A DNA stretch of 64,000 bases. Origin: Georhizobium profundi. Lineage in GTDB: Bacteria > Pseudomonadota > Alphaproteobacteria > Rhizobiales > Rhizobiaceae. The notes under the pieces were generated by a model, which was given only the letters and a program-made list of their open reading frames with translations, searched no databases and was not told the DNA's origin. The DNA lies in NCBI RefSeq assembly GCF_003952725.1, contig NZ_CP032509.1:124001-188000 (forward strand), read 5' to 3'. This document shows, in pieces, positions 30,609 to 46,563 of this stretch. A program made the translations under genes and the position numbers. Position 1 is the first letter of the stretch, and every line of letters starts with the position of its first letter.

Positions 30609-30701
30609 AGCCTTCTATCGCCCCTCCGGGCGGACTTGATCAGATCGCTGCCGGGAAATGGTTCACATGGTCGACGCCGATGGGTCACGCGAGCCCGACA
30701 C

Positions 30702-32126
30702 TCACGTTTCCAAAGAACGGAGCAGTTCTTCCCGATTCAACTCAGCCTTCTCGTCAATCAGATCAAGATACCGCTCCACCGCCTTGGCAACGCTTAGCCG
30801 AATGTGCCCGAGGTCATCCCACGAGATCGTCCCATTCGGATGGCCGAGACTGTGCAGATACTCGTCTCTCAACGTGTAACCGCGCTCCAGCCAGTCCGCT
30901 TCGTTGTCGTCATCAACGAGACGTCTGTATCTGCGCTTCATCTTCTCGCGGCCGCGATGTTCCCTGAGCATCAAGGTCGCCTCGATACAGCTTATGTTCA
31001 CAACGATCTCGTCGATCCCTTCTTCCGAGAGAGCTTTGACGAAGAAGTGCTTAGTCAGCGGATGTAAGATCGCTCTCTCTGTGCCTCGCTTTGCAAGCAC
31101 CTTTTGAAGCAACCGCCATCGCTGTTCGAGTGTGTCGAGTTGTTGTCGGCCAAGCTCGAAAGACTCCGACCGATCGGGAACTTCGATCTCCTCGTCCGGA
31201 TGACCGATGAGGGTCCAGGTCATAGCCGCCGCGTCGGGCGCGCGCGGCGCGTCAGCGAACGGATCGTCGGAGAACGAATAGACCCAGGGAACGTCAAACG
31301 GTTCCCACGAGCCGTCAATCGACTCCTTGCTAAGACACAAAAGCAGCACAAATAGCGCGTCCTCCACAGGCGACGGAAACGTCGGCTCGAACACTGGAAC
31401 CTTGCCGATCTCATCCCATCGCTTGTGAAGCACGCCAAGCCAAGTGCGTTCCCATAGCGCACCAGCCGGCTCGGACTCGCTCGTGACAAGCCAATAGAAC
31501 CCATCCAATCTTTCGACGGGAAATTGCTGCCAACGGCCGAAGCGTTTTAGCGCATCATGCCGCACGCGCCGACCGAGTTCCCCGCGTCTGAGAAGGGCGA
31601 TCTCGTTCGTCCCGAAACGCACATTCTCGACGCTTTGGTGCGGCCGCTGACTTGAATCGTCCAGATCGAGGCGATCGAGGGGCGCGTAATGGAATCGCGT
31701 CACTTCCTCGACCAAGAAAGCGCGATGCAGCTTCCGTGCTGTGTCATCGGCAGTTTGCAGGCTGCCTGAATGCCAAGGTGCCTCATTCCAGCGGAAGAAG
31801 TTTTCGAGTGCCGTCCGCAGTTCCTTTCGCGATGAATCACCGGAAGGACGTTTCGAGAGCCGAGAACCGCTCATGTCGGGATAGATCAAAGCGCAATTGC
31901 TCTCAAGCAACCGAAATGCTGCCGAGCTATAAGCTTCTTCCTCCGTTCGGCATGCCGCACGCCAAAGGTCGGCGACAGCCAGCCGTATCGCTTCAGGTGC
32001 CTCCTCTGTTTCCTTACCCAAGGTCGTTCCCTCCAGCCACGCCATCATCGCACTTTCCGATGAAATCAAAAATGGCCAATCGGCGATGCAAGTGGCCGCT
32101 CCCATGACAAAGGGCCTCGACGGCAT
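30702..32126 (-). CDS. Putative HEPN (Apea-like) ribonuclease, possible defence gene
   Basis: The 474-residue protein has an unassigned N-terminal region and a helical C-terminal domain ending in YTLRDEYLH, where R420 and H425 form the R-x4-H motif of HEPN RNases; the following helices resemble Apea-like HEPN proteins. HEPN proteins are RNases of toxin-antitoxin, abortive-infection and CRISPR systems. The ATG at 32126 was chosen because GGAGAG lies 8 bp upstream. The gene is opposite in orientation to all neighbouring ICE genes and is less GC-rich, as expected of an acquired cargo gene. No antitoxin is adjacent. The assignment rests on a short motif and gene context. Confidence 0.5.
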   Translation of the reverse strand: MPSRPFVMGAATCIADWPFLISSESAMMAWLEGTTLGKETEEAPEAIRLAVADLWRAACRTEEEAYSSAAFRLLESNCALIYPDMSGSRLSKRPSGDSSRKELRTALENFFRWNEAPWHSGSLQTADDTARKLHRAFLVEEVTRFHYAPLDRLDLDDSSQRPHQSVENVRFGTNEIALLRRGELGRRVRHDALKRFGRWQQFPVERLDGFYWLVTSESEPAGALWERTWLGVLHKRWDEIGKVPVFEPTFPSPVEDALFVLLLCLSKESIDGSWEPFDVPWVYSFSDDPFADAPRAPDAAAMTWTLIGHPDEEIEVPDRSESFELGRQQLDTLEQRWRLLQKVLAKRGTERAILHPLTKHFFVKALSEEGIDEIVVNISCIEATLMLREHRGREKMKRRYRRLVDDDNEADWLERGYTLRDEYLHSLGHPNGTISWDDLGHIRLSVAKAVERYLDLIDEKAELNREELLRSLET

Positions 32127-32743
32127 CTCCACCAGCTCTCCGAACCTCGCCCATGACGGGCTGGCCGCCGGTATCCGCTCCGTCTTCGCATCGCCGTCTC
32201 CGCATCTAGCCGGCGCGGGACGTCCCAATCAGCGTGATCGCGTCTTTGGTGCTCTCGACGCCTTCCCGGTCGGCCCACCGTGGCGTGGCAGCGCGGCGAG
32301 CCGGAGCCATGCTTCATCCCTTCAGGCGCGCACGAGCCGTCACCGTTGCCCCGGAGATGGTAACGGCGCCATTCGCCCGGACGCCGGTGCCGGCGCTGTT
32401 CCTCATCAGCAATCCGAGATCGGCATGCGCTTGAGACAGGCGCGGCGATCGCGCTGTTTCCCGAGATGGCGCGGGTAAGAGGCCACGACCGATGGCCGGG
32501 CCGGCAAGGAGGAAGGTTCTGCGGTTTCTCCGTGATGCGTTCGCGGAAGGACATGCCCTCCGACTGACTGATCCCCTACGGCCGAGCGGTTTCCGCCCTC
32601 AACCCCCGCGGCTCCGGACCGTGTTGGCGCGAAGCGCCTGCCCGCCCCACTCCGGGCCTTAAGGGTTGCTGTCGGCTCCCGGCGACCGTGGCCGGGTCTC
32701 GTCGGAGGGACGGTCCCTCCGATTGAAGCAACGGAGAACTACC
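32127..32743. other. Gap with possible degraded gene ends and ssb leader
   Basis: No intact gene is convincing here. On the minus strand short frames read like broken gene ends (for example RNSAGTGVRANGAVTISGA then a stop near 32,311), suggesting remnants left when the HEPN gene was acquired. The part before ssb contains a hairpin with a 9-bp stem (CGGAGGGAC / GTCCCTCCG, 32703-32721) 22 bp before the ssb start, which could act in control of ssb. Confidence 0.4.
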
Positions 32744-33145
32744 ATGCAGAACATCGTCATTCTTGCCGGCAACATCGGTCAGGACCCCGAGGGCCGCACC
32801 ACCATCAACAACACCCGCATCGTCCACTTCACCCTAGCCACCTCGCGCCCCCGCTACGCGGAAGGCAAGGTTCTGCGGGACAAGGACGGCTACCGGGTCC
32901 AGGAGACCGAATGGCACCGCATCACCTGCTTCAACGGCCTCGGCAAGACGGTCGAGCAGCATTGCCAGAAGGGCATGAAGGTGCTGGTCCGGGGCCGCAT
33001 CCACTACACGAAGTGGACCGACCGGGAAGGCGTCGAGCGCTACAGCACGGAGATCATCGCCGAGACGGTGGACTTCCTGAGCTGGCCGAAGCGGGAGGAC
33101 GACAGCCGCGGCGCCAACGATCCCGACGACGAGATCCCGTTCTGA
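32744..33145 (+). CDS. ssb: Single-stranded DNA-binding protein
   Basis: The 133-residue protein has the OB-fold of bacterial SSB (LAGNIGQDPEGR, TEWHRITCFN, VLVRGRIHYTKW) and the acidic tip DDEIPF that recruits partner proteins. ICE-borne copies coat single-stranded DNA during transfer or rolling-circle replication. It is shorter than chromosomal SSB because the linker is short. A strong terminator follows. Confidence 0.92.
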   Translation: MQNIVILAGNIGQDPEGRTTINNTRIVHFTLATSRPRYAEGKVLRDKDGYRVQETEWHRITCFNGLGKTVEQHCQKGMKVLVRGRIHYTKWTDREGVERYSTEIIAETVDFLSWPKREDDSRGANDPDDEIPF

Positions 33146-33160
33146 AAGGAGGTGTCGAGA

Positions 33161-33184
33161 GCCCGGCGGCGAAAGCCGCCGGGC
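33161..33184 (+). terminator. Rho-independent terminator after ssb
   Basis: A perfect 10-bp stem (GCCCGGCGGC / GCCGCCGGGC) with a GAAA tetraloop and a CTTCTT tail lies 15 bp after the ssb stop. Confidence 0.8.
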
Positions 33185-33604
33185 CTTCTTCATGTTCGCG
33201 GCCAGAAACTTCGCGACCCGGCTTCGAGCCTTCCCGCAACGCTCACTCGACGTCTCGCCCTGTCTGGGCCGAGCATATCCGCCGCCGATCCTCTGCCAGG
33301 TGGCGGGCAGGCATCGACGGCGTGCCACCCGCGCGCACGCCCGAGCGTGGCATTGACGCGAGGCCGAACCTACCGGCGCATCCGGGCGAGGACGTGCAGC
33401 TCCGTGGGGAGGAATGCCACCCCGCTCTTTGAGGCTTACCTTCGTTCCAGTCGCGGCCTTCCACGATCAACCCCAAGGGGTCGGACTATGCACGGCATGC
33501 CGCCGCCGGAGGCTTCGCCCCGGCGGTGATCGCGGCCGCGGCCGAAACCCATCGGGCGCCTGTCGAGCGGGGATGGCCCCCGCTCCAGATCAGGAGCCGC
33601 AGCA
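33185..33604. other. Gap between ssb terminator and split small gene
   Basis: No gene is supported in this 420-bp stretch. It includes GC-rich paired segments (around 33,500-33,525, GCCGCCGGAGG with CCCCGGCGGT) and a GGAG 8 bp before the ATG at 33605, so its distal part is probably the leader of the small gene interrupted by the mer element. Confidence 0.4.
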
Positions 33605-33701
33605 ATGTCCCTTCCAGACGCACAAGCCTTCGCCTTCAGCCTCGCCGCCACCCTGCTGGTCACGATCGTCATCTTTCGCGCCGGCGACGGCACGGTCGGC
33701 G
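33605..33701 (+). pseudogene. 5' half of a small membrane-protein gene split by the mer element
   Basis: From the ATG at 33605 the frame encodes MSLPDAQAFAFSLAATLLV and continues to IFRAGDGTVG, including one membrane helix, before running into the mer element. The matching 3' half lies at 43409-43479. Joining position 33701 to 43409 gives an unbroken 55-residue frame, so the two halves were once one gene. The present frame runs 14 codons into the element before a stop. Confidence 0.8.
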
Positions 33702-33728
33702 TTTATCTGAACAGTCAAGCTGTCTCAC
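33702..33728. repeat. Left terminal inverted repeat of the mer element
   Basis: Read inward to outward, this 27-bp end is GTGAGACAG, 9 variable bases, then TCAGATAAA next to the core. It pairs with the right end at equal spacing (8 of 9 identical in the outer part). The merR stop lies inside it. Confidence 0.75.
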
Positions 33729-34165
33729 TGGCATTTCGCTGAGCTCGCCGGCTCCCGGAACAGCGTCTCGATCAGCGGACATTCCCGCCGATTGCCTTCT
33801 GTGCATTGGGCCACCACGTCCTTCAGCACTCGCTCCATGCGTTTCAGGTCGGCGATCTTTTCACGCACGTCGTCGAGATGCGCGGCGGCAACGGCGCTTG
33901 CCTCGGCGCAGGGCTGGTCGCGCTCGTCGACGAGGCGCAGCAGTTCACGGACTTCATCGAGGGAGAAGCCGAGCTCGCGCGCCCGCAAGACGAAGCGAAG
34001 CCGTCGCTCGTGGGTGCTGTCGTAGCTGCGATAGCCGCTCGCCGTGCGCGGCGGCTCCGGCAGGAGGCCGACCTTCTCGTAATAGCGGACCGTCTCCAGA
34101 TTGCACCCTGTGCGCTGTGCGAGTTCGGCGCGCTTGAGGCCTTTCACGCCAGCGTGATCGCGCAT
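33725..34165 (-). CDS. merR: Mercury-responsive regulator MerR
   Basis: The 146-residue protein has an N-terminal MerR helix-turn-helix (LAQRTGCNLETVRYYEKVGL), a long dimerisation helix, and the three Hg(II)-binding cysteines in the usual contexts (QPC, AQC and REC), so it should sense Hg(II) rather than another metal. It is divergent from merT across the operator at 34179-34209. The GTG or ATG question does not arise: ATG at 34165 gives MRDHAGVKG. Confidence 0.93.
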   Translation of the reverse strand: MRDHAGVKGLKRAELAQRTGCNLETVRYYEKVGLLPEPPRTASGYRSYDSTHERRLRFVLRARELGFSLDEVRELLRLVDERDQPCAEASAVAAAHLDDVREKIADLKRMERVLKDVVAQCTEGNRRECPLIETLFREPASSAKCQ

Positions 34166-34178
34166 CCAAAAATACCCC

Positions 34179-34209
34179 TTGACCCTGTAGTTGCTACAGA
34201 CCGCACATT
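34179..34209 (+). promoter_or_regulatory. mer operator-promoter
   Basis: TTGACC (34179-34184) and a weak -10 CACATT (34204-34209) are separated by 19 bp, the over-long spacer of MerR-controlled promoters. The spacer holds the perfect dyad CTGTAG-TTG-CTACAG (34185-34199), the MerR binding site. MerR-Hg(II) would untwist this spacer to activate merTPF-merBA. Confidence 0.85.
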
Positions 34210-34250
34210 AGCGCCTGGATAGGTTTTCGACAAGAAGAGCGAGGTCGAAC

Positions 34251-34676
34251 ATGAATGCATCCCGACACGGACCAGCAGACGTTGCACCGACTGCGGCAAA
34301 CCTGACGACGCCAGAGCGAAGCGAGGCCGGGCGACAGCGCCTGGTCGCCGTCGGCGGCATACTCGGCGCCATCGCCGCCTCGTCCTGTTGCATCATTCCG
34401 CTCGTCCTGTTCAGCCTCGGCATCGGCGGCGCCTGGATCGGCAATCTGACGGCGCTTGCGCCCTACAAGCCACTGTTTGTCGCCGCAACGGCGGGCATGC
34501 TCGGCTACGGCTTCTACCTTGTCTACTGGAAGCCGCGACAGGCCTGTGCCGATGGGGCTGCCTGCACGCGCGCCGTCCCCAGCCGCCTCGTTCAGATCGC
34601 GCTCTGGTTCGCGACCGTACTCGTCGCCGCTGCTTTCGCCTTCGACTACGTCGCGCCGCTGCTGCTTTCCGCCTGA
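34251..34676 (+). CDS. merT: Mercuric transporter MerT
   Basis: The 141-residue protein has three membrane helices; the first contains the vicinal cysteine pair in SSCCIIPL, and the cytoplasmic loop carries a second cysteine pair (QACADGAACTR). It moves Hg(II) from MerP into the cytoplasm. It is first in the merTPF-merBA operon, with an unusually long 30-residue N-terminus before the first helix. Confidence 0.92.
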   Translation: MNASRHGPADVAPTAANLTTPERSEAGRQRLVAVGGILGAIAASSCCIIPLVLFSLGIGGAWIGNLTALAPYKPLFVAATAGMLGYGFYLVYWKPRQACADGAACTRAVPSRLVQIALWFATVLVAAAFAFDYVAPLLLSA

Positions 34677-34696
34677 CACCAAGAGGAGACTACCCC

Positions 34697-34990
34697 ATGA
34701 GGAAGAGTTTGAGCGCTTTCACTTTGATCGCGTCGGTGATGACTGCGCCTGCCGCCTTCGCCGCCGAACGCACTGTGACGTTTGCCGTCGACAACATGAC
34801 CTGCGCCTCGTGCCCCTACATCGTGAAGACCACGATGGCGGCAATCCCCGGTGTCGCGAAGGTGACCGTCTCCTTCGAGGCGAAGTCCGCGACCGTGACC
34901 TTCGACGACGCTAAGACGAGCACCGATGCCATCGCAGCCGCCAGCATGAATGCTGGTTATCCGGCCCACCCGACGCAGCAAGGCAGCTAG
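34697..34990 (+). CDS. merP: Periplasmic mercury-binding protein MerP
   Basis: The 97-residue protein has a signal peptide ending in AFA before AERTV and one heavy-metal-associated domain with the NMTCASC motif, whose two cysteines hold Hg(II). It hands mercury to MerT or MerF. GAGGAG lies about 10 bp upstream. It lies 20 bp after merT and abuts merF directly. Confidence 0.93.
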   Translation: MRKSLSAFTLIASVMTAPAAFAAERTVTFAVDNMTCASCPYIVKTTMAAIPGVAKVTVSFEAKSATVTFDDAKTSTDAIAAASMNAGYPAHPTQQGS

Positions 34991-35239
34991 ATGACTGATC
35001 GCGCCGTAATCCGCGCAGGTGCCGTTGGCGCCGTCCTCGCCGCGATCTGCTGCGCGGCGCCGCTCCTCGCCGTCGGCCTGTCTCTGGCGGGTCTTGGCAC
35101 GTGGCTGACAGGTGTGGGTGCAGTGGTGCTTCCCCTGATCGTCGCGGGCTTCGGCTTCGGCGCGTGGGGGCCCCATCATCGCCGGGCAAGAGCCACGGCC
35201 TATGAGACGAAGATTCGCAAGGAAGGCGTGAAGCCATGA
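34991..35239 (+). CDS. merF: MerF-type mercury transporter
   Basis: The 82-residue protein has two membrane helices, the first with the vicinal pair ICCAAPLLAV. This is the MerF layout, an alternative Hg(II) transporter. Its start abuts the merP stop, and its own stop overlaps the start of merBA by 4 bp. Confidence 0.85.
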   Translation: MTDRAVIRAGAVGAVLAAICCAAPLLAVGLSLAGLGTWLTGVGAVVLPLIVAGFGFGAWGPHHRRARATAYETKIRKEGVKP

Positions 35240-37473
35240 ACGATTGCTGTGCAACCTCCTCCCGGGACAACCCGGCCGTTTCTCAGCCCGCGACACTGGC
35301 GAGCTTTGCCGTTCGACCGGGCGTAACGTTTCCGGATTGGTCGGCGGTCACGTCGCCTGTGGTCAAGAACGCTCTGCAGGCGATGGTCGGGTCCGACCAC
35401 GTGCTCAATCGCTGGAGCGGTTACGATCCCGCCACCGACAGGGTGCGTGTTGCGTTGCTCCGACTCTACGCCGACCACGGGGGTGCCCCGACCATAAGCG
35501 CGCTTGCGGAGCGTACAAAACTCAGTGAGATGGTCATCCGGCCACTGCTCGACGAGCTCCGCCGGCGCGACCTCGTCGTTCTCGATGGCGAGCTGATCGT
35601 CGGCGCCTATCCGTTCAGCGATCATAACACCGGCCATCGGGTCACTCTGGACGGACGCACGCTGAATGCAATGTGCGCGGTCGACGCGCTGGGCATCGGT
35701 GCCATGACCGATCGCGACACCGCGATCGCCTCGCCCTGCGGCCATTGCGGCGCACTGATCCGGATCACCACGCAGGACCGAGGGCGGGCACTCGCCGACG
35801 TCGAGCCACAGTCGGCCGTCATGTGGCAGAGCGTCCGTTATGAAGGCGGCTGCGCCGCGAGCTCGCTCTGCGCGACGACCGCTTTTTTCTGCTCGGACGA
35901 GCATCTTTCCGCCTGGCGCGACGAACGTTCCACCGACGAGCCAGGTTTCCGGCTGTCGATCGAGGAAGGACTGGAAGCCGGCCGTGCTCTGTTCGGGCCG
36001 AGCCTCGCTGGTCTCGATGTGGCGTCGAAGAGCCTGGTGGTCGCCAACCGACCCTTGCGCACAAACGGTCGCAATGGAGGCGCTTACGATCTCGTCGTCA
36101 TCGGCGCCGGCTCGGCCGGCTTCTCGGCCTCGATCACGGCCGCCGATCAGGGCGCACAGGTGGCGCTCATCGGCAGTGGCACCATCGGCGGCACCTGCGT
36201 CAATGTCGGCTGCGTGCCGTCGAAGACCCTGATCCGCGCGGCCGAGACGCTTCATAACGCTCGCGTGGCGGCACGTTTTGCCGGCATTACTGCTGAAGCC
36301 GAACTGACAGACTGGCGCGGAACCGTTCGTCAGAAGGACACGCTCGTGTCTGGGCTGCGCCAGGCCAAATACGCGGACCTGCTCCCCGCGTACAATGGTA
36401 TCGCCTATCGCGACGGGCCGGCTCGCCTCCTCGACGGCGGTGTCGAAGTTGACGGCGCGCGTATTGCCGCTGGCAAGATCATTATCGCAACCGGCGCGCG
36501 GCCGGCAGTTCCTGCTATTCCTGGCCTCGAGACCGTACCGTATCTCACCAGTACGACGGCGCTCGACCTCGAGGAACTGCCGCGATCGCTGCTGGTGATC
36601 GGCGGCGGTTATATCGGCGCGGAGCTCGCCCAGATGTTCGCCCGTGCCGGCGTCAAGGTGACCCTCGTCTGCCGGTCCCGACTGCTCCCCGAGGCCGAGC
36701 CCGAGATCGGCGCGGCGCTCACGGGGTATTTCGAGGATGAAGGCATCACCGTTATCTCCGGCATCGCTTACCGCGCGATCCGCAAAACCGAGGGCCGAGC
36801 GTCACTGACCGTCACGCGTGACGGTCACGATGTCCAGATCGACGCCGATCAGGTGCTGATCACCACGGGCCGCACGCCCAACATCGAAGGCCTTGGGCTG
36901 GCCGAGCACGGGATCACCGTCTCGGCGAAGGGCGGCATCGTGGTCGACGACCGCATGCGCACGACCAAGGCTGGCGTCTATGCCGCCGGCGACGTCACCG
37001 GCCGCGACCAGTTCGTCTACATGGCCGCCTATGGCGCCAAGCTCGCCGCCAAGAACGCCCTCAATGGCGACAGCCTGCGCTACGATAACAGCGCCATGCC
37101 CGCTATCGTCTTCACCGATCCGCAGGTCGCAAGCGTAGGTCTCACCGAGGCGGCGGCGCGTGCGGCCGGGCATGAGATCCGCGTTTCGACGATCGGTCTC
37201 GATCAGGTGCCGCGCGCACTCGCCGCCCGCGACACTCGTGGGCTTATCAAGCTCGTGGCCGATGCTGCTGGCGGTCGTTTGCTCGGCGCCCACATCCTCG
37301 CGCCGGAAGGTGCCGACAGCATTCAGACCGCGGCTCTCGCGATCCGCCAGGGTCTCACCGTCGATGACCTCGCGGACACGATCTTTCCTTACCTCACCAC
37401 GGTCGAGGGGCTGAAGCTCGCAGCACTTTCGTTCGGCAAGGACATCGCCAAACTCTCCTGCTGCGCCGGGTGA
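35236..37473 (+). CDS. merBA: Fused organomercurial lyase-mercuric reductase (MerB-MerA)
   Basis: The 745-residue protein joins two enzymes. Residues about 40-270 form a MerB lyase domain: Cys147 and Asp150 in AMCAVDAL correspond to MerB Cys96/Asp99, and Cys212 is the probable second catalytic Cys. Residues about 283-745 are MerA: VIGAGSAG for FAD, the redox pair Cys321 and Cys326 in GTCVNVGCVPSK, and the C-terminal vicinal cysteines in LSCCAG. The NmerA metal-binding domain is absent, its place taken by MerB. The fusion would cleave R-Hg and reduce the released Hg(II) in one molecule. Fusions of this kind have been noted in some genomes, as I recall, but remain rare. Confidence 0.92.
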   Translation: MNDCCATSSRDNPAVSQPATLASFAVRPGVTFPDWSAVTSPVVKNALQAMVGSDHVLNRWSGYDPATDRVRVALLRLYADHGGAPTISALAERTKLSEMVIRPLLDELRRRDLVVLDGELIVGAYPFSDHNTGHRVTLDGRTLNAMCAVDALGIGAMTDRDTAIASPCGHCGALIRITTQDRGRALADVEPQSAVMWQSVRYEGGCAASSLCATTAFFCSDEHLSAWRDERSTDEPGFRLSIEEGLEAGRALFGPSLAGLDVASKSLVVANRPLRTNGRNGGAYDLVVIGAGSAGFSASITAADQGAQVALIGSGTIGGTCVNVGCVPSKTLIRAAETLHNARVAARFAGITAEAELTDWRGTVRQKDTLVSGLRQAKYADLLPAYNGIAYRDGPARLLDGGVEVDGARIAAGKIIIATGARPAVPAIPGLETVPYLTSTTALDLEELPRSLLVIGGGYIGAELAQMFARAGVKVTLVCRSRLLPEAEPEIGAALTGYFEDEGITVISGIAYRAIRKTEGRASLTVTRDGHDVQIDADQVLITTGRTPNIEGLGLAEHGITVSAKGGIVVDDRMRTTKAGVYAAGDVTGRDQFVYMAAYGAKLAAKNALNGDSLRYDNSAMPAIVFTDPQVASVGLTEAAARAAGHEIRVSTIGLDQVPRALAARDTRGLIKLVADAAGGRLLGAHILAPEGADSIQTAALAIRQGLTVDDLADTIFPYLTTVEGLKLAALSFGKDIAKLSCCAG

Positions 37474-37485
37474 GCACAATCGGCG

Positions 37486-37860
37486 TCAAGGGCGTTTCCT
37501 GCCGATGATCGGTATGACGTCGGCGGTGCGGTTATCGCGCCGCCGTTCCATAAGCTGGCACAGCGCGCGGACTTGACGATGCTGGGCGAGCACGGTTTCG
37601 ACGGCGCGCCGCTCCTGTTCGGCCCGGGCCGTCCCCGCCGGCCGATCCGTCGCGTTGCGCCGGGCTCTCGACTCGGCAACTGCATGGCGGAAGGCTTCCA
37701 GCACCTCGGAAGCGCGGTTCGCGGTCGCGCGACTGACACCTGCCTCGATGGCCAGATTCACAACCGTCAGCCTGCCATCAGCCACGCGGGGGCACCCATA
37801 AAGGAGGCGCGCCATCGCCTCACGAAGCGCCTGTTCCGTGGCTGCACTGACCGGCTTCAT
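37486..37860 (-). CDS. TnpC-like small recombination accessory protein
   Basis: The 124-residue protein is close in size to Tn554 TnpC (about 125 residues) and, like it, is the last gene after the recombinases. It begins MKPVSAATEQALREAM, contains a helix-turn-helix-like segment (NLAIEAGVSRATANRA), and ends in basic residues. Its start overlaps the upstream recombinase stop by 4 bp (ATGA). It probably orients or stabilises the recombination complex; that is inferred from the Tn554 parallel. Confidence 0.7.
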   Translation of the reverse strand: MKPVSAATEQALREAMARLLYGCPRVADGRLTVVNLAIEAGVSRATANRASEVLEAFRHAVAESRARRNATDRPAGTARAEQERRAVETVLAQHRQVRALCQLMERRRDNRTADVIPIIGRKRP

Positions 37861-40001
37861 GATGTGCGTTCCTTCAACGGCGCGATGAGCCTGCGTTTTC
37901 TGTCGTTGTCCAGGCGCAGCGCTTCGCGTTGCAGCGGGGAGAGACGCTTGTCGGCGAGAAGATCCTCCGCCTGTGCAATGGAGGCTTCCCATGGCGGGAG
38001 ATGTCGCTCGACGAGGCAGGCGTTGGGACATCGGTCGGGCGCGCATCGCGACAGGACCGGCACCGAGGCTGAAGGTTTCTCAGACTCCCGCAGGCAGAGC
38101 GCCGTCAATGGGTCGAAGAAGCAGTCGTTCAGATATCCGACATGCAGCGTGCGCGCCAGATGCGCCAGCATCGCCTTCAGGCGCTTGCGATCGGCCAGTT
38201 GCCCCGGAAGCGGGCCGAGTTCGCGGCCGACCCGCTCCAGTTCCACGCCGACGCGCTTACCGGCGGGTCCGCCTGGACCGTGACCGCGTCGATGGTTTTC
38301 GAAGTAGTCGATGATGTCGTCGAGTTGTCCGAGCGCCAGTTCCTGTTCGACCTCCTGCCTGAAGCCGGATGCGGACGAGCCGGCATAGCCGTTGAACATG
38401 GCCACGGAGGCGTGCTTGTACTGGATTTTGCCGGCGACAACCCCGAAGGGCCGGTTCGCGATGTACCAGGCCAGCGTTCGCCTGAACTGACGGGTGTTGA
38501 AGCGCCAGACGTCTTCTCCCACTCGGGGGATCACAGGACTATCGTCCGCGCCATATCGCTCATCGAGATGTTCTCGGAATTGGTTGATCTTCTTGGCGAT
38601 GAGTATCGGCGTCTCGGCATTGTTCGTCTCGCGGTCGTCAAGGGCAAGCCATAGCCGCTCTGTCCCCGCATTCCGGCGGAATCGTTCCGAAAGACGCTCG
38701 GCAACCCGGATCGCCTGGACGGCGGCCTCGATGGTGATCCATTCGACCTGTTCGCCGCGAGCGCCGCGATCCTTCCAGGTCACGCCCTCGATCGCCAGCC
38801 TTTCTGTTCGCCCGTCCCGGTCGAGATTCCGTTTCAGGCAGCCGGATCGCAGCGACTGCACCTCACCGTCGCGCATGCCCGTCAGATAGCAACACACGAT
38901 ATAGGCGGCCGTCTGCAGGTGCCGTTCTTCCCGCGCCAGGCTGATGGCATCGAAGCGCTCCCGCCACGGTCGCCCCGTGTCGGGATCCGGGGAGATCGGC
39001 GTGTCCATCCCGCCCACCTCGAACCCAAGCTCGTCGACAGCATCATGAACCATCGACAACAGGGCCGGATCTTTGTGGACGGTGGTGAGATGCAGCCCGC
39101 ATTGCATCGTCAGGAGCTTCAGATTGATGACCTCGCCATCAAACCTGCCGCCCCGCGACAATCTGCCGGTCAGCCCCCCGATCGAAAGAGGTCTTTCCCA
39201 GACAGGAATGCCTCTTCCTTCCTCGCGACGCTTGTCGATCCAGGAGGCCAGCATTACCGCGGGCCGCGTGTGGCGGGCGCGCGAGCGTGCTGCGAACCGG
39301 CTGTTCAGTGCATCGGCTTCAGCCCGGGCAGTGAAGATGTCGTCGCAGAGGTGCTCGACATATTTCAAGGCCCATCGCAGCATTGCGCCGATGACCGGCT
39401 CCGGGATGCGCGCGGTCCGGTTTTCCGAACAGCGCGTTCCCTGGCCGGTTGCCCGATAGACCGGTCGGCCGCGCCACGGGGTGAAGGTGATGCCACCGCA
39501 CGTCAGATAGGGCGCCAGGCGATGAAGCTGGACGATGGGCCTGAGGCACACACCCACGCGCCCCGGCGTGATCGGCCGCGCCCGGTGATGGGTCGCGTAT
39601 GCATCGATCAAATCCTGATCGACGTTTGCCAGATCGAGCTTGCCGATCCGCGAGCGCACGAAGTCCAGGAACCGGCGCAGCGTCGCAAGCGCAGTATGGC
39701 CGGAGACTGGCCGCAACCGCGGCTCACCGTCGGCGCGCCGTTCATTCATCCAGGCATAGATGTATTCCTTCGCAAGCAACCGCTCTGCCGCGCAGGGGAT
39801 CACGCCGAAGTCGACCGTTCGAAAGGCCTTTCTGGCCATGTTGAACATCGCCGGCGCCATATCCCAGACATCATCGCCGAACCGCGAGAGCGCCGCTCGG
39901 TCGGTACCATCCCTGAGAGGCATCGAAGCCAAAACGATGTCGTCATCGACCCTGAGGCGTGAGACGGCACGCTCATCGTTCAAAGGAGAGGTAGTGGTCA
40001 T
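37857..40001 (-). CDS. Tyrosine recombinase 3 of the trio
   Basis: The 714-residue protein has an N-terminal DNA-binding region and a C-terminal integrase domain with the catalytic Arg in TGMRDGEV, a second Arg in TRQFRRTLAW, then YKHASVAMFNGYAG supplying His and Tyr. A cysteine-rich tail (CAPDRCPNAC) may be a zinc-binding element. It is unusually long for a tyrosine recombinase. Both ends overlap neighbouring genes by 4 bp. Confidence 0.8.
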   Translation of the reverse strand: MTTTSPLNDERAVSRLRVDDDIVLASMPLRDGTDRAALSRFGDDVWDMAPAMFNMARKAFRTVDFGVIPCAAERLLAKEYIYAWMNERRADGEPRLRPVSGHTALATLRRFLDFVRSRIGKLDLANVDQDLIDAYATHHRARPITPGRVGVCLRPIVQLHRLAPYLTCGGITFTPWRGRPVYRATGQGTRCSENRTARIPEPVIGAMLRWALKYVEHLCDDIFTARAEADALNSRFAARSRARHTRPAVMLASWIDKRREEGRGIPVWERPLSIGGLTGRLSRGGRFDGEVINLKLLTMQCGLHLTTVHKDPALLSMVHDAVDELGFEVGGMDTPISPDPDTGRPWRERFDAISLAREERHLQTAAYIVCCYLTGMRDGEVQSLRSGCLKRNLDRDGRTERLAIEGVTWKDRGARGEQVEWITIEAAVQAIRVAERLSERFRRNAGTERLWLALDDRETNNAETPILIAKKINQFREHLDERYGADDSPVIPRVGEDVWRFNTRQFRRTLAWYIANRPFGVVAGKIQYKHASVAMFNGYAGSSASGFRQEVEQELALGQLDDIIDYFENHRRGHGPGGPAGKRVGVELERVGRELGPLPGQLADRKRLKAMLAHLARTLHVGYLNDCFFDPLTALCLRESEKPSASVPVLSRCAPDRCPNACLVERHLPPWEASIAQAEDLLADKRLSPLQREALRLDNDRKRRLIAPLKERTS

Positions 40002-41809
40002 GAGCCGTAAGCCTCCGGCGGAAGATAGAGCAACCGCGCCGAGGATTCTGCCGCCTCAACCCGTGCGCCTCCGACGACGGAGGACGGGAACATCGGCAGA
40101 ATTTGCTCCGTGATCCTGCGGTATGGCCGATCGAATTTCTCGTTCCAGTCGCCAGAAGGCAACGCCTCCCGCAGCTCGTCCATGAACGCCTGGAACGCGA
40201 TCAGCGCCGGTAGTTTCCGTGCGGTAATGACCGCGTTGGAGCATTCCAGGCACCCCCAGAACGGCGTCGGACAGGCTTCGCCTTCCCGACCGAAAGGGCT
40301 GACGCGGAAGTTGCTGCACGCCGCCAGCCAAAGATCCTGCTCTCCGTCCAGGAGCGGGCCGATCTTTTCCGACGGCACCGGCAGCCCGGTCGCGTCGGCT
40401 GAGGTTCGCAGCCGGGCTTCATCCGCGGGCACAACGATCCAAGGTCGCAGAGCCGGCGCCATCGCGTCGGTCAGTGCCTCGACTATCGTCTGCTCATGCA
40501 GATGCCGAAGGGCGGGGATGTCGGCATAATGGTTGGCCGCCACCGCTACCGTGTGGCCGACGGCAAAGTTCTCCAACTGCCCTCCGGTCCGCTTATACCA
40601 GTCAGCCTTCTGGGTCTTGCGCAGCCTGGAGAGATTGAGCGCCAGCGATTTTCCGGCGTCATCGACGATTCCGTACTTCTCGACAAACGCGGCCACGCAG
40701 GTCCCCAGCTTTTTCGGCGACGACAGGCGCCCCGGCTTCCAGGTGATCCAGAGCTTGCTCGATCCAGTGTGCTGCCGAGCCTTTTCCGTCAGCTTGATCG
40801 CCAGCCGCAGGACGGCTCCGGGCGTCTCCCGTCCGCCATCGCGGACACGCAAGCGCTTCCACTGGGCATGATGCGCGCGCCGCTTTCGATACTCGATCTC
40901 GACATAACCCCGGTTGGGATTGCGCAAGCAGTCAGCCTCAAGCCCACGCAGCGCTTCGATCTCCATGCCGGTCGTCAAGGACAGCCAGACGAGGAAGCCG
41001 ACGACATCGTACCGGGTCAGATGGAAGCCGGCATGCAGTTCCTCGACCGGAGGCGGCTCGAGCCCGCATCTATGAGCGTGGTAGCGCAGATTGTCGAACA
41101 GCGCGCCTTCCCCGGCGACTACTCCCGCCGTCACAATCTGTTCGACCACTAGGTCATAGCGACGGCGCAATTCTGGATCACGGCCTACATCCAGAAGTGG
41201 GGGAGGCAGAGCCTCGCCCGTCGCTATCCGGTCGCGAGCCTCGATGATCTGGCGCATCGCTGCCTGCAGCAACGTCGAGGCAATCCTCCCACTGTAGGCA
41301 TCGCGCGGCTTTGAGACGCCGTGCTCGCCGTGACCGATGTATTTCAGGCGCAACAGTGTTTCGGGCGGAAGCCTTTCAGGATTGAGCTCGGCGGCGACGC
41401 GCAGCACCCCGATCAGAGCACCGAGCACATTGCGCTGATTGGGTCGCTCGCCGCCGTTCTGCTCCAGCCAGTCCTCATAGGCATTGATTACCGCCGGAGT
41501 TAAGTCGTCGAGACGACGAGGTTTTACCGACGCCCCTTCCAGGAACAGCCAGAACCGCCGCAGACGGCGGATAAAGGTGCCTGCGGTTTTCCAGAGTGGT
41601 GCCGGCCCCATCCGGTGGAGATACTCCTGCAGGAATGGCGCAACCTCATGGGTCAGCGCCGTCAGCGGCCAGGAAGACAGATTGACGTCGATCCTCCCGG
41701 CATCTTCCGTCCGAAGGACGAAGACGAGCGGATTTTGCGGATTTTCCTCTTGAGTGTCGAACAATTCGATTCCAACTGGGAAGGTGGCACGACGACCGCG
41801 TTTCATCAC
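39998..41809 (-). CDS. Tyrosine recombinase 2 of the trio, catalytic Arg I missing
   Basis: The 603-residue protein resembles Tn554 TnpB in size. In the catalytic domain the first box reads TTGMEIEALRG, with Glu where the catalytic Arg is expected; the second Arg (SRLRKTQ) and the GHTVAVAANHYAD His/Tyr box are present. Cysteines in ACSNF and CPTPFWGCLECSN suggest a zinc finger near the C-terminus. It may act only with its two partners. Both ends overlap by 4 bp. Confidence 0.75.
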   Translation of the reverse strand: MMKRGRRATFPVGIELFDTQEENPQNPLVFVLRTEDAGRIDVNLSSWPLTALTHEVAPFLQEYLHRMGPAPLWKTAGTFIRRLRRFWLFLEGASVKPRRLDDLTPAVINAYEDWLEQNGGERPNQRNVLGALIGVLRVAAELNPERLPPETLLRLKYIGHGEHGVSKPRDAYSGRIASTLLQAAMRQIIEARDRIATGEALPPPLLDVGRDPELRRRYDLVVEQIVTAGVVAGEGALFDNLRYHAHRCGLEPPPVEELHAGFHLTRYDVVGFLVWLSLTTGMEIEALRGLEADCLRNPNRGYVEIEYRKRRAHHAQWKRLRVRDGGRETPGAVLRLAIKLTEKARQHTGSSKLWITWKPGRLSSPKKLGTCVAAFVEKYGIVDDAGKSLALNLSRLRKTQKADWYKRTGGQLENFAVGHTVAVAANHYADIPALRHLHEQTIVEALTDAMAPALRPWIVVPADEARLRTSADATGLPVPSEKIGPLLDGEQDLWLAACSNFRVSPFGREGEACPTPFWGCLECSNAVITARKLPALIAFQAFMDELREALPSGDWNEKFDRPYRRITEQILPMFPSSVVGGARVEAAESSARLLYLPPEAYGS

Positions 41810-43245
41810 AGGGGTCCACCAGCATTAACGCGCAGTTCCCAGGCCTCGACCGCAGCGTCGATCATTTCCTGGCTTTCTTCCATGCAATCCAGGTAGATGT
41901 GAGTGCTTTCGATGCGGCTATGGCCCAGCAAACGCTGCAACTTCAGAAGAGGATCGCCAATCAAGCGGCGGTACGCCGCGCCGATATGGGATCGGCGTTC
42001 GTCGAGTACCCATCCGATCTGTTCACGCACGAGCAGCGACAGCATATGAACCGCAAAGGTGTGGCGCATCATGTGCGGAGTGACGTCGAGGTCGATCCCG
42101 AACCGCCTGCACCGTACGCTTGCCCTCCGGAAGACCACCTCCCAAGCGGCCGGGGGCATGGGCCGCGCCCCTTCCGCCAGCCAAAGACACAATGGTTCGG
42201 ATGTTTCCGCCCATACCAAGCGGCTGCGTTCGCGCGGCGCCAGCACGTCGACACTGGCTCGAACTGTGTCCTTTTCCAGAAGGAGCCTTCCCCGATCGTG
42301 GCTGACGACACGGATCGGATGTTCGATTGACCTATTGCGCGGTTGCGAAAGGCGCATGAGGACATTGGTCCGTTCCAACGCCGCGTATTCATGCAGACGC
42401 TTCAGCACGCGCTCGGGCAAGCGGATCTCGCGCCCCTTGCTACCCTTGGCAATGGCCGGCGCCAGTCGGAAAGATCGGCTCCTCAATGCACCGACCGGCT
42501 CCGTCCTCGGGAACTCGATCCAGAGCAGACTTGCCGCTTCCTGGAGCCGCAGGCCCGTCGTGACGAGCAATTCGGCGAACAACGCATTGCGCTCGCTGTT
42601 GCGGCCCTGCCAGGTGGGATCCTCGCTCCCGTCTGGAAGACGACCACGCAAGCCGATCTCGCGAAACAGGAGATACCGATCCAGGGAAAGGAACCGGATA
42701 TCGCGTGTCCGTGCGCCGCGCTCGGTGGCAACATTGGCAGCGACCGCTATGGCCCCGCCGCCGTTCGTCCGTCGCCATGATTGCCGATAGGTGAAAGGCG
42801 ATTTGGCGATCATTCCCTCTTCAAGAGCCCATCGGTAAAGCTTGTCGAGCGCTGCTACCGACCGGTTCCAGCTCGCGGCCGAGATGCGCGCCGGAGGAAG
42901 CGCCAGACGTCGCGCCGCATGGAAGGCTGCGACATCGTGCCGATCAGCCGCCCAGAGGGCTCTGTTGTCTCGGCGCTCGGCAAGAAAGCGCATCCAGATC
43001 AGGATATCCCAACCATAGGCGCGCAAGCTGTTGGGCGAACGAACCCCCAACGTGGGGCAAGCTCGAAAGAACCGGTTCAGGTCGTGATCGTAGCTGTCGT
43101 CATCGCCAAGAATGAACGGCATGCCGTCCACGAGGTTCAGCTTCTCGGCGGCTGCGACTTCATCCACCGACAGCCTGTGGACGACGCCATCAACCGTAAC
43201 AGACTGCCGCAGCGTCGAAAGATCCGTGAAGAAGAGCTGGGGCAT
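41806..43245 (-). CDS. Tyrosine recombinase 1 of the trio
   Basis: The 479-residue protein has a SAM-like N-terminal DNA-binding domain and a full catalytic set: GLRLQEAASL (Arg I), HMMRHTFAVH (His-x-x-Arg), and LGHSRIESTHIYLD (His and nucleophile Tyr). As the first gene of the operon it corresponds to Tn554 TnpA. A GAGGAGA ribosome binding site precedes the ATG at 43245, and a 50-bp perfect palindrome lies just upstream. Confidence 0.85.
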   Translation of the reverse strand: MPQLFFTDLSTLRQSVTVDGVVHRLSVDEVAAAEKLNLVDGMPFILGDDDSYDHDLNRFFRACPTLGVRSPNSLRAYGWDILIWMRFLAERRDNRALWAADRHDVAAFHAARRLALPPARISAASWNRSVAALDKLYRWALEEGMIAKSPFTYRQSWRRTNGGGAIAVAANVATERGARTRDIRFLSLDRYLLFREIGLRGRLPDGSEDPTWQGRNSERNALFAELLVTTGLRLQEAASLLWIEFPRTEPVGALRSRSFRLAPAIAKGSKGREIRLPERVLKRLHEYAALERTNVLMRLSQPRNRSIEHPIRVVSHDRGRLLLEKDTVRASVDVLAPRERSRLVWAETSEPLCLWLAEGARPMPPAAWEVVFRRASVRCRRFGIDLDVTPHMMRHTFAVHMLSLLVREQIGWVLDERRSHIGAAYRRLIGDPLLKLQRLLGHSRIESTHIYLDCMEESQEMIDAAVEAWELRVNAGGPL

Positions 43246-43261
43246 CCTGTTCTCCTCGGCC

Positions 43262-43311
43262 GCGATTTTCCCGCCGGGACGGGCTCGAGCCCGTCCCGGC
43301 GGGAAAATCGC
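43262..43311. repeat. 50-bp perfect palindrome upstream of the recombinase operon
   Basis: Positions 43262-43311 are an exact self-complement with centre at 43286/43287 (GGGCTCGAGCCC). It lies 16 bp before the recombinase 1 start codon and 65 bp from the element's right end. No T-run follows on either strand, so it is not a standard terminator. As RNA it would form a 24-bp hairpin just before the ribosome binding site, which may shield the recombinases from read-through. Confidence 0.8.
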
Positions 43312-43376
43312 ATCGCCTCACCTCAAGCGAAGGGGAATGTCGTCAACGTTGATCGTGTGCTGCGAACGTCACAGCG

Positions 43377-43403
43377 GTAAGACAGAACACAGAGTCAGGA
43401 TAA
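43377..43403. repeat. Right terminal inverted repeat of the mer element
   Basis: On the plus strand this end reads GTAAGACAG, 9 variable bases, TCAGGATAA, then the core CGGCG. It mirrors the left end at 33702-33728 with the same spacing. Confidence 0.75.
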
Positions 43404-43408
43404 CGGCG

Positions 43409-43479
43409 CCATGCCCGCCGCCGAATATGACGGCGACGACGAAGCCATCATCCGCGAGATCGACCCGTTCGCCCCTTGA
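43409..43479 (+). pseudogene. 3' half of the small membrane-protein gene split by the mer element
   Basis: Directly after the core the frame reads MPAAEYDGDDEAIIREIDP and stops at TGA 43479. Joined to the 5' half at 33605-33701 it restores a single 55-residue frame. The fragment contains an ATG but is too short to be a gene by itself. Confidence 0.75.
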
Positions 43480-43488
43480 GGGCGAACG

Positions 43489-43704
43489 TCAGGGTCTCGA
43501 CACGCGGATCAGCTCGCAGGGGTCGACGTCGAGCGCGTCCGCCACCTTTCCGAGAATGCTCACGCTCGCCGAAACCTTGCCGCGTTCGATCGAGCCGATA
43601 TAGCGAGCGCTCAGCCCGGAGCGCTCGGCCACTTCTTCTTGCGTCATATCCTTGTCATGGCGCAGCCGACGCATGTTGATCGCCATGACCTCTTTGAGGT
43701 CCAT
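43489..43704 (-). CDS. QseC-like XRE-family repressor
   Basis: The 71-residue protein is a minimal XRE helix-turn-helix (MTQEEVAERSGLSARYIGSIERGK). It is divergent from a DUF2285 gene across tandem dyads, exactly the qseC/qseM arrangement of ICEMlSymR7A in which QseC represses the antiactivator gene qseM and itself, forming an on/off switch for ICE transfer. Identification as QseC rests on this arrangement and size. Confidence 0.8.
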   Translation of the reverse strand: MDLKEVMAINMRRLRHDKDMTQEEVAERSGLSARYIGSIERGKVSASVSILGKVADALDVDPCELIRVSRP

Positions 43705-43724
43705 GACGCATCGGAACCAGAACC

Positions 43725-43753
43725 GGAATTATCGTTCTAGGAATGATCGTTCC
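43725..43753. promoter_or_regulatory. Tandem operators between qseC- and qseM-like genes
   Basis: Two near-identical dyads, GGAATTATCGTTC (43725-43737) and GGAATGATCGTTCC (43740-43753), lie 15 bp apart, 21 bp upstream of the XRE start. They are the natural binding sites for the XRE repressor. A further dyad, CGGAATG-GAAG-CATTCCG (43823-43840), lies 93 bp before the DUF2285 gene and may be a third site or a leader hairpin. Confidence 0.6.
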
Positions 43754-43932
43754 GATTCGGTATGGTCGACCACATGCGCTGAGATCAAGTGCGTCGCAGC
43801 CCGTCGACTTTCTGTCGAATCGCGGAATGGAAGCATTCCGAGAATCTTCGATGCCAGTCGCGGAACTTCTATTGCACCTCAAAGCGATGACGTATTTGTG
43901 AACTACATGCGCGAGGAAGTAAGGACACTACG

Positions 43933-44196
43933 ATGAGCAAATCTCCCTTCAAGGACAGCCCTCCGCTGACCGACAGGGTGAATGCCTATGACGAAGCCAA
44001 CCTCGCAACCTATCTGCGCCTGCTCGACGCTGCCGCCGAGGGCGAGGACTGGCGGGAAGTCGCGAAGATCGTGTTCGGCCTCGACGTCGACGCCGATCCC
44101 GAACGCGCGAAGCGGATGCACGACACCCATCTCGCCCGCGCCCGCTGGATGACCGAGAAGGGCTACAAGCACCTGCTGGAACCGCGCATGCAATGA
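43933..44196 (+). CDS. QseM-like antiactivator (DUF2285)
   Basis: The 87-residue DUF2285 protein contains the family core NLATYLRLLDAAAEGEDWREVAKIVFGLD and LARARWMTEKGYKHLL. In ICEMlSymR7A, QseM binds and blocks TraR and FseA, keeping the ICE integrated in most cells. The position between a qseC-like gene and an fseA-like gene supports the same role. No traR/traI quorum-sensing genes are in the window. AAGGA lies 10 bp upstream. Confidence 0.82.
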   Translation: MSKSPFKDSPPLTDRVNAYDEANLATYLRLLDAAAEGEDWREVAKIVFGLDVDADPERAKRMHDTHLARARWMTEKGYKHLLEPRMQ

Positions 44197-44351
44197 TGGG
44201 CGGCGCATCACCGCATCGCCGACGACAGCGCGACCCCGGATTGCTCGCCACGGTCGAGATTTCCATTCCGATTTTCCATCTTCACGCGAGGTCGACCCCG
44301 CCAATACTCGAATCATCCCGATGGCAAAGACCGGGCGGGGAGGATTTCGTC

Positions 44352-44675
44352 ATGGAGCCGCTGCACGACTGGCGATCACCGCAGTTCGAGGAACATCTGG
44401 GCCGTCTCGACCGGGGCGGCGTGTCGTTCGAGTTTCTTCGTCGCAACCGTGAATACCGGCAGGACTATGCCGAGACGCTGGCAAGGGTGGCCTCCGGCGG
44501 CGCGGACAAGAAGGACGCGATAGCGCTCCTGTCCCGTCGCTGGGGGCTCGCCTTTCCCGGCGGACCCTTCTGCATCGGCGTTGACCGCTCGACCCGTCTG
44601 GCTGCCTCGAATCTTCCCTGCCGTGCTCATTGTCATGGCTGTCCCCGAAGGCTTTGCAGCTTCTTCGCTTCCTGA
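44352..44675 (+). CDS. FseA-like activator, zero-frame part (DUF6499)
   Basis: The 107-codon frame encodes a DUF6499 domain (HDWRSPQFEEHL, FEFLRRNREYRQDY, LLSRRWGLAFP). After that the frame stops resembling a protein and runs on to 44675. The DUF2285 half continues in the +1 frame from 44557, so this gene is read by frameshifting at TTTCCCGG (44553-44560). In ICEMlSymR7A the fused product FseA activates rdfS. Confidence 0.75.
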   Translation: MEPLHDWRSPQFEEHLGRLDRGGVSFEFLRRNREYRQDYAETLARVASGGADKKDAIALLSRRWGLAFPGGPFCIGVDRSTRLAASNLPCRAHCHGCPRRLCSFFAS

Positions 44676-45168
44676 TCCTCGCGCGCTGCCGCTACTGGGC
44701 GAACTGGCCGGCGACGGCCTGCACGCCGTTGCTGAAGACCAGGCCGGGGATCACCGGCTCTGGCTCCAGCATGGTGCTGAACCGGCCAACGCCGGTATCT
44801 TCCTTCCGCTCGACGAGCATTTCTGGTGGCGTCACCGAAATGCCGGCCGCCTGAAGCGCCGGCTGGACAGGAAGCCGGCCGGTCCCTCGCCACGCCAGCA
44901 GCGCCTATCCGCATTCCAGATTCGTCGCGCCGCTCTGATGCTGCGTGCCTGGGACGGCGTGGAATCCGGCGCCTCGCGCCGCGTCATCGCCGCCGTTCTC
45001 ATCAACCGGACCGTCGAGACAATGCGCGCCCTCGACTGGCAGAACGCTCCGGAGCGGCGGCGGCTCGCACGTATCCTCGCGGCCGCGCGCCGGCAGATCG
45101 AGAGCGGCTATCTGCGCTGGCTGGTGCCCCACGCATCGCGTGGTCGGCGCGAAAGCGATCGAGACTGA
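44557..45168 (+). CDS. FseA-like activator, +1-frame part (DUF2285)
   Basis: Reading from CCG at 44557 gives PADPSASALTARPVWLPRIF, the typical DUF2285 opening, then helices through AAVLINRTVETMRALDW to the stop at 45168. It has no convincing start codon of its own (a TTG at 44581 is inside the domain). A +1 shift at TTT or at CCC gives the same joined sequence LAFPADPS, producing a 271-residue DUF6499-DUF2285 protein, expected to activate the rdfS-like gene 141 bp downstream. Confidence 0.75.
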   Translation, partial: PADPSASALTARPVWLPRIFPAVLIVMAVPEGFAASSLPDPRALPLLGELAGDGLHAVAEDQAGDHRLWLQHGAEPANAGIFLPLDEHFWWRHRNAGRLKRRLDRKPAGPSPRQQRLSAFQIRRAALMLRAWDGVESGASRRVIAAVLINRTVETMRALDWQNAPERRRLARILAAARRQIESGYLRWLVPHASRGRRESDRD

Positions 45169-45221
45169 CTCGCCAGCAGACCCACGCGCTCGAAGGGGGG
45201 ACACTTCTCCTAAGACACCCC

Positions 45222-45254
45222 GATTTTTGTCACTCCGCCCAACCGCTGATTTTT
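45222..45254 (+). promoter_or_regulatory. Direct repeats upstream of the rdfS-like gene
   Basis: GATTTTT occurs at 45222-45228 and 45248-45254 (26-bp period) between fseA and rdfS. The paired spacing on one DNA face and the position suggest binding sites for the FseA-like activator; untested. Confidence 0.4.
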
Positions 45255-45309
45255 CGCCATCGTCGCATCTGACTCGCCGTTCTCACGGCGGCCGCGACGG
45301 AGGCCGATC

Positions 45310-45576
45310 ATGGACAATATCACCGACAGCAATTGGCCGCGCTTCGTGCGGACGCCGGAGGCGGCCCGCCTCCTCGATCTCTCGCCCCGCACGCTGGAAA
45401 AGCATCGCTGCGACGGCACCGGGCCGATCTACCACAAGCTCGGCGGCCGCGTGGTCTACGCCGTCGCCGACCTGCAAGCCTGGATCGAGGCGAGCGCACG
45501 TCAATCCACCTCCGAGCCGGCGACGCCGAGCCTGCCCGCGCCGCGCGACACGGGCGCGGCCGACGCGACCCGCTGA
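45310..45576 (+). CDS. RdfS-like excisionase (helix-turn-helix)
   Basis: The 88-residue protein has a MerR/AlpA-type winged helix (TPEAARLLDLSPRTLEKHRCDGTGP, then GGRVVYAVADLQAWIEA). Size, fold and position after an fseA-like gene and before transfer genes match RdfS, the recombination directionality factor of ICEMlSymR7A, which drives IntS to excise the ICE. The cognate integrase is not in this window. Confidence 0.8.
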   Translation: MDNITDSNWPRFVRTPEAARLLDLSPRTLEKHRCDGTGPIYHKLGGRVVYAVADLQAWIEASARQSTSEPATPSLPAPRDTGAADATR

Positions 45577-45583
45577 CCACCGC

Positions 45584-46447: not shown

Positions 46448-46506
46448 TCGGAGCCGGGACATCGCTCCACCGCAGCCGTGGAAAGCCTGTGGACGGAACC
46501 GTACTA

Positions 46507-46563
46507 TCGGGAACGCTGATTCCCGTCTTTTCGGGAACGCGAATCCCGTACCATCGGGAACGC
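46507..46563 (+). repeat. Iteron-like repeats, candidate origin
   Basis: TCGGGAACGC occurs three times (46507-46516, 46531-46540, 46554-46563) at 24- and 23-bp steps, about two helical turns, each followed by an inverted TCCCGT. The cluster begins 60 bp after the RepA-like gene, in a 270-bp gap without a credible gene. A small AAGAATCC / GGATTCTT hairpin lies at 46625-46643. Confidence 0.65.

Follow-up and report, generated by a model that had tools for sequence, protein, structure and literature searches.

The window analysed here is a stretch of 64,000 nucleotides of Georhizobium profundi (contig NZ_CP032509.1, positions 124,001 to 188,000), in which a mobile element carrying mer genes and a four-gene recombinase operon (ginA, ginB, ginC and ginD) interrupts a small gene of an integrative and conjugative element (ICE). 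Here it is proposed as likely that this is a GInt-type site-specific transposon with mer cargo. It would home on one place in a small gene conserved among the plasmids and ICEs of Alphaproteobacteria, and would travel between hosts on them. In its build the element resembles a GInt-type member of the Tn554 group, and by its footprints it probably works like one.

Insertion site and near-identical copies

The element comprises 9701 bp between two 6-bp cores, and the insert 9707 bp counting one core (Table 1). With the insert removed, the two parts of the target gene rejoin to an open frame of 55 residues, as an earlier note on this DNA had read from its letters, and the CGGCG which it had placed at both junctions is present. 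The note was right to see a discrete mobile element that brings a recombinase operon of its own. Its end points are checked most strongly by an unoccupied ICE relative (contig G061:C10), from another genus of the same family. This contig matches window positions 17589-33701 (16113 bp, 99.994% identity) and 43404-59561 (16158 bp, 99.981%), both gap-free, and the two flank matches overlap by CGGCG with zero bases in between, giving an exact empty site. The native core of the empty site is CGGCGC, the same as the ginA-side core of the window, while the far-side core is CGGCGT.

The earlier note had taken CGGCG as a core of 5 bp. The repetition is there; however, the variable core obtained by comparing insertions is 6 bp long, because the base ahead of TTATC varies among them, being C instead of T in the Pseudochelatococcus copies. 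Inverted end repeats (GTRAGACAG, a 9-bp spacer and TCAG), also reported in that note, are present and recur in relatives, but within the window alone they are unremarkable, with 13 of 26 positions agreeing, which 1653 of 20,000 random interior pairs reach as well. Their support comes from the recurrence at the ends of relatives, and is partly circular since those ends were chosen by motif likeness. GInts are described with a short, AT-rich 3' end; here, 22 nt separate the far-side core from the merR stop.

Near-identical copies of the element were found in 5 of 72,556 PLSDB records (B. betae, Aminobacter, Sinorhizobium pSinA and pSinB, and P. versutus), both plasmids of one strain, pSinA and pSinB, being occupied. 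A GinA-alignment scan of 84,980 species genomes gave 60 loci, five of which encode a GinA identical to that of the window: L020 in Pseudochelatococcus, L021 in a Methylobacterium metagenome-assembled genome (MAG), L022 in a Hyphomicrobiales MAG, L023 in P. versutus and L054 in Falsochrobactrum. The nine copies with both flanks (L007-L011, L021-L023 and L054) have 0-3 differences from that of the window in 9702 positions. The element is thus 99.97-100% identical among copies, whereas the 150-bp flanks are 30-79% alike (ungapped), except in L011, L023 and L054. The Falsochrobactrum (L054) and Paracoccus (L011, L023) copies share both 150-bp flanks exactly, their elements differing at single positions, and an occupied backbone may therefore have moved between these genera. 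The Pseudochelatococcus genome (G532) has four junctions at the ends of contigs, two on the left and two on the right, plus two intact target genes, and its element contig (L020) was read as a collapsed pair; its two sites are 94% (left) and 92% (right) alike, and 94% and 85-88% alike to those of L011. A different sequence at the rejoined site and copies with other end points, which the earlier note had named as contrary to its view, were looked for: the rejoined site is matched exactly by the empty one, and all copies located, 12 in number and representing at least 10 insertions, are at one place of one small gene. The far-end pattern was found only in the window's own genome among 385 genomes of the class, and GinA only in that genome, plus one weak match, among 150 relatives. 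No published description of the element was found among the open-licence PMC papers searched, and the available passages of a paper on strain M14 mention the mercury loci of pSinA and pSinB and no such element.

The small target gene, counting interrupted copies, occurs in 41 of 200 relatives, in 14 of 67 and 29 of 121 genomes of two genera (those of G533 and G535), and in 7 of 385 genomes across the class sample, fewer than in the three narrower samples. In PLSDB, two query variants of the gene found 226 and 447 records, of which 134 and 314, respectively, are typed as conjugative. Its carriers are plasmids, and chromosomal elements resembling plasmids, of bacteria from soil and water. Aiming at a gene common to conjugative plasmids could explain the reach of one mer module into several genera, and insertion into a small gene would spare essential genes and gain onward transfer.

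Around the site, the ICE stretch is 99.98-99.99% identical between two genera of one family (window 17589-59561 compared with G061:C10, L200 and L201), and therefore moved between them recently. Additionally, an ssb gene (32666-33145) ends 460 bp ahead of the target gene; GInts of other bacteria have been reported at ssb genes (PMC5385486; this and the other papers cited are drawn on from parts of their text).

Core placement and movement

For insertions with two unlike 6-mers, the flanks, minus the core, were compared with intact target genes. The native 6-mer is on the ginA side in the window (CGGCGC, compared with L134, 100/100%), in L011 (CGGCGC, Paracoccus relatives, 100/100%), in L021 (GAGCGT, L151, 98/92%) and in L007 (CGGCGT, L108, 87/97%), and clade A has a native ginA side in four of four decided cases. 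The two cores of P. versutus DSM 582 are CGGCGT and CGGCGC. Clade C has 10 insertions, five with unlike cores; L017 and L078 follow the rule exactly, and L041 is nearer on the ginA side, which reads CATGCC, with CACACG on the far side, CATGCG in the nearest relative and CATGCC in the next. Four of the five insertions examined in clade D have unlike cores. L015 fits the rule exactly by an Afipia relative (94/91%) and ties by another relative (92/93%), and the foreign core on its far side, ATCGCG, recurs as the core next to ginA in L016, the copy on the second plasmid of the Bosea strain that carries L015. Altogether 15 insertions were compared: all eight that were decided with relatives at least 90% alike have the native 6-mer on the ginA side, two with distant relatives lean the opposite way and five are undecided, and seven further insertions with unlike cores, of clades B and D (L014, L028, L030, L050, L056, L058 and L065), lie outside the comparison. 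A one-sided sign test gives 0.004 for 8 of 8 and about 0.055 for 8 of 10.

For strand-biased circularizing elements (SEs) and Tn554, a rule with the native 6-mer at the first-integrase end has been stated, and the movement of GInts was listed as untested, and their strand bias as unknown, in 2023 (PMC10214605). In the mechanism proposed here, the gin proteins would join both ends into a circle carrying the 6 bases adjoining the ginA end; at insertion these carried bases would go to the far end and the 6 bases of the target itself would remain beside ginA. The exchange would involve one strand or follow an order, in line with what has been proposed for SEs and Tn554; the donor copy would probably be kept, and the host plasmid or ICE would provide transfer from cell to cell. 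For GInts, excision as a circle is described as requiring all four genes. We infer excision, circles and copying-out of the element from sequence comparison. The footprints predict that the ginA-side CGGCGC travels and is carried by the circle joint; of the two possible joints, the earlier note, with a T after CGGCG, probably gave the wrong one. With near-identical natural insertions whose cores are readable, and an empty ICE, the movement rule can be tested by comparison and yields a sharp prediction for the circle joint.

A conservative, integrase-like cutting out and pasting in, in the style of ICEs and integrative and mobilizable elements, would form a heteroduplex joint with both flanks, and the core asymmetry would then be due to repair or chance. 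This is consistent with the circles with either core, and the restored empty sites in some strains, described for Pseudomonas GInts (PMC5385486), with the equal cores at both ends of L008, L009, L010, L022 and L024, and with the two insertions leaning against the core rule (L042 and L016). However, by chance half of the insertions with a near intact target would have their native core next to ginA, not eight of eight, and several copies exist within single genomes or strains, and such a mode is considered unlikely.

Several points nevertheless weigh against the ordered exchange and the GInt-type identity preferred here. L042 (clade C) and L016 (clade D), with relatives only 74-76% and 76-80% alike, respectively, lean the opposite way. 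L039 (clade D) is a tie by letters even with relatives 92-93% alike, although its ginA-side core encodes the same residues as theirs, and L055 (clade D, among the relatives fetched) and L069 (clade C) are without a near relative. In G532, the ginA-side cores TACCGC and CAGCGC match no intact gene seen, and the far-side cores CGGCGC and TGGCGC are common native ones; the two insertions are ambiguous, and the opposite rule fits this genome at least equally. The seven insertions outside the empty-site comparison belong here as well. Furthermore, GInts are described with imperfect direct repeats of 10-17 nt (PMC5385486), whereas the direct repeat at the insertions studied here is only the core of 5-6 bp.

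It is improbable that the element is an SE proper instead of a GInt-type one. Its core rule is identical to that described for SEs (SE-6945 and SE-6283; PMC10214605), with which it shares four genes, a 6-bp core, the native 6-mer at the first-integrase end and the donor 6-mer at the far end, and as in SEs there is a degenerate recombinase in the second gene. Gene C also matches gene 3 of an Alteromonas operon, SE-like by a reading of its layout only, at 4.5e-26. However, A, B and D are unmatched to genes 1, 2 and 4 of that operon (gene 1 being an unannotated frame), whereas the profiles of A, B and C match four-gene operons of P. aeruginosa and C. metallidurans plasmids gene for gene, and that of D matches the C. 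metallidurans operon, not the P. aeruginosa one. Membership of the SEs (intA-tfp-intB-srap), which the passages available of PMC10214605 report from Gammaproteobacteria only, was rejected, as only gene 3 of the SE-like operon is matched. A spread of whole plasmids or ICEs, with the shared site due to common descent of one insertion, does account for the one occupied backbone in two genera (L011, L023 and L054), but is highly improbable and, as a general explanation, refuted by the dissimilar flanks of an otherwise near-identical element and by the empty state of an otherwise near-identical ICE, and the cores vary between sites.

Genes of the element and relation to known systems

The gin operon occupies one end of the element, with the cargo behind ginD (Table 1).

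Table 1. Features of the element and of its insertion site, in window coordinates
Feature	Coordinates	Strand	Basis
Target gene (55 residues, interrupted), first part: 32 codons plus one base	33605..33701	+	Joined frame, intact homologues, empty site
Far-side core CGGCGT, foreign 6-mer, footprint	33697..33702		Native site reads CGGCGC
Far-side terminus TTATCTGAACAGTCAAGCTGTCTCAC	33703..33728	+	Similar in relatives
merR regulator	33725..34165	-	Pfam PF09278/PF13411; NCBIfam TIGR02051, 138.2 bits, under cut-off 150.85
merT mercuric transporter	34251..34676	+	PF02411
merP-like mercury-binding protein, HMA domain	34697..34990	+	PF00403; start as annotated in L007
merF-like transporter	34991..35239	+	NCBIfam NF033565, 39.1 bits, under cut-off 50
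merBA, fused organomercurial lyase and mercuric reductase, 745 aa	35236..37473	+	PF03243, TIGR02053
ginD-like small protein, 124 aa	37486..37860	-	Profile match to gene 4 of C. metallidurans operon
ginC-like large tyrosine-recombinase-like protein, 714 aa	37857..40001	-	R377, K410, R507, H530, Y539; R504 in place of one catalytic His
ginB-like protein, 603 aa	39998..41809	-	Box-I Arg replaced by E283; R397, H419, Y428 kept
ginA-like tyrosine recombinase, 479 aa	41806..43245	-	PF00589, PF02899; R233, K267, H391, R394, H442, Y451
Perfect 25+25 bp palindrome, loop-less	43262..43311		16 nt ahead of ginA start codon
ginA-side terminus, TTATCCTGACTCTGTGTTCTGTCTTAC read inwards	43377..43403	-	Likeness to ends of relatives
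ginA-side core CGGCGC, native 6-mer	43404..43409		Intact targets, empty site
Target gene, remainder	43409..43479	+	Joined frame, empty site

The earlier note had counted three tyrosine recombinases. Three recombinase-like proteins are encoded, but the full catalytic set is found in the first, GinA, only; gene B is without the box-I arginine and one histidine, and in gene C one histidine is substituted and R, K, R, H and Y are retained. The operons of P. aeruginosa and C. metallidurans likewise lack the box-I arginine in gene 2 and keep it in gene 3. Pfam searches at 0.001 gave no match for GinB or GinD and, for GinC, one sub-cut-off match to DUF1194. For the structural models of GinB (pLDDT 74.4) and GinC (pLDDT 71.5), the best solved structure by Foldseek is Cre recombinase, at E 3.3e-4 and 1.5e-4, respectively, both with a low TM-score. 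All four genes are in order in 55 of 67 loci (one duplicate record, L038, being excluded), while six loci are incomplete at their ends or fragmentary and six are without a recognised fourth gene.

Like GInts (PMC5385486), the element has three recombinase-like genes and a small gene at one end with the cargo behind ginD, a preferred site and a staggered core of about 6 nt, and mer cargo is known in GInts of P. aeruginosa. The high insertion specificity of GInts is found here as well, every one of the 12 near-identical copies located being at a single place in a single gene. The differences are in the partly degenerate recombinase, which in GInts, taken here by their description, is GinC with its first arginine missing and here is the second gene, and in the sites, which are internal codons of plasmid genes, and the cargo-free elements of about 6 kb, unlike the GInts reported in the available passages of that paper. 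Because of the shorter direct repeats and the degenerate recombinase in second place, the element is classed as a variant rather than a plain GInt. The alphaproteobacterial branch is new in that its readable targets are four plasmid-borne genes, in its cargo-free members and in its readable footprints. Idola 2023, in the part available, did not find a ginC-ginD block in Alphaproteobacteria, whereas the class is listed by Bardaji (PMC5385486).

The relation to Tn554 proposed in the earlier note stands; its suggestion of an undescribed relative of Tn554 and recombinase-trio (RIT) elements does not, as the four-gene layout had already been described as ginABCD of GInts (PMC5385486) and RITs do not fit. 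Tn6571 and Tn6488, subfamilies of the Tn554 family, are alongside GInts the closest known (PMC8865565, PMC10121019). Tn554 is likened here by description, not by sequence: it is site-specific, has a small TnpC protein and brings a 6-bp donor core to the new right end (according to PMC10214605), but has two recombinase genes where the element has three, and Tn554 proper (tnpA, tnpB and tnpC only) was rejected for the four genes present here. RITs share three recombinase genes in a row; however, their archetype has proteins of 315-410 aa, all with the catalytic tyrosine, and 34-bp terminal repeats (Table 1 of PMC10214605), and membership was rejected for the proteins of 479, 603 and 714 aa, the fourth gene and the different end repeats.

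A perfect or near-perfect loop-less palindrome, with arms of 20-26 bp and no more than one mismatch, is present 16-22 nt ahead of the ginA start in the window. Of 24 other leaders tested, 10 have one as well (L013, L014, L024, L026-L030, L032 and L033), the remaining 14 having stems of 7-12 bp only. The palindromes of L026 and L027 have letters wholly unlike those of the window with the symmetry preserved. It could act as a leader hairpin or as a DNA hairpin.

Sister elements and their targets

More distant relatives also use the same site. L024 (GinA 87% identical) is a cargo-free element of 5940 bp with 16 bp from the ginD frame to the far end, and L025 (86%) has its ginA-side junction in the same gene, its contig ending inside the element. 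Cargo can be missing from other members too, 16 of the 40 elements with both ends mapped having less than 300 bp behind the ginD frame. In a tree of 64 GinA rows, with target labels assigned by eye from the flanks, the users of the small gene form one clade (6 rows, 100/100), those inserted between VTGPDYG and R of a protein without Pfam match a second (7 rows, 99/97) and those between LRHHA and AEG of DUF6915 another (14 rows, 100/100). Insertions of a fourth group are at either of two sites, between ELVA and AE of an ArdC-like zincin metallopeptidase (PF18818) and between SHRA and AE of the VTGPDYG protein, with an identical GinA at both. For eight rows the target is a different one or was not read. 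In the loci read, the named targets are on plasmids. Pfam at 0.01 gave no match for the small target gene or for pieces of the VTGPDYG/SHRA protein.

More tentatively, and with somewhat less than even confidence, a GInt-type branch in Alphaproteobacteria may consist of homing transposons of conjugative plasmids and ICEs, whose clades each use particular conserved backbone codons (of the 55-residue protein, the ArdC-like metallopeptidase, DUF6915 and the unnamed VTGPDYG/SHRA protein). They would spread by ordered one-strand exchange of the core with the donor kept, with or without cargo, and the cores would record donor and recipient of each jump.

The two plasmids of Bosea sp. AS-1 (L015 and L016) have a clade-D element with a mer region related to that of the window (83% DNA identity); mer cargo is therefore found in two clades of the family. 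Six contigs of Mesorhizobium sophorae (L061-L066) encode an identical GinA. In one of them, L064, the ginA side is inside the metallopeptidase gene and the far side inside the SHRA/VTGPDYG gene, an arrangement suggestive of copies having recombined or of a join made in assembly. Additionally, four contigs of 6133-6178 bp (L053, L057, L060 and L068) are nearly all one cargo-free element, as expected if there were several genomic copies or a circle.

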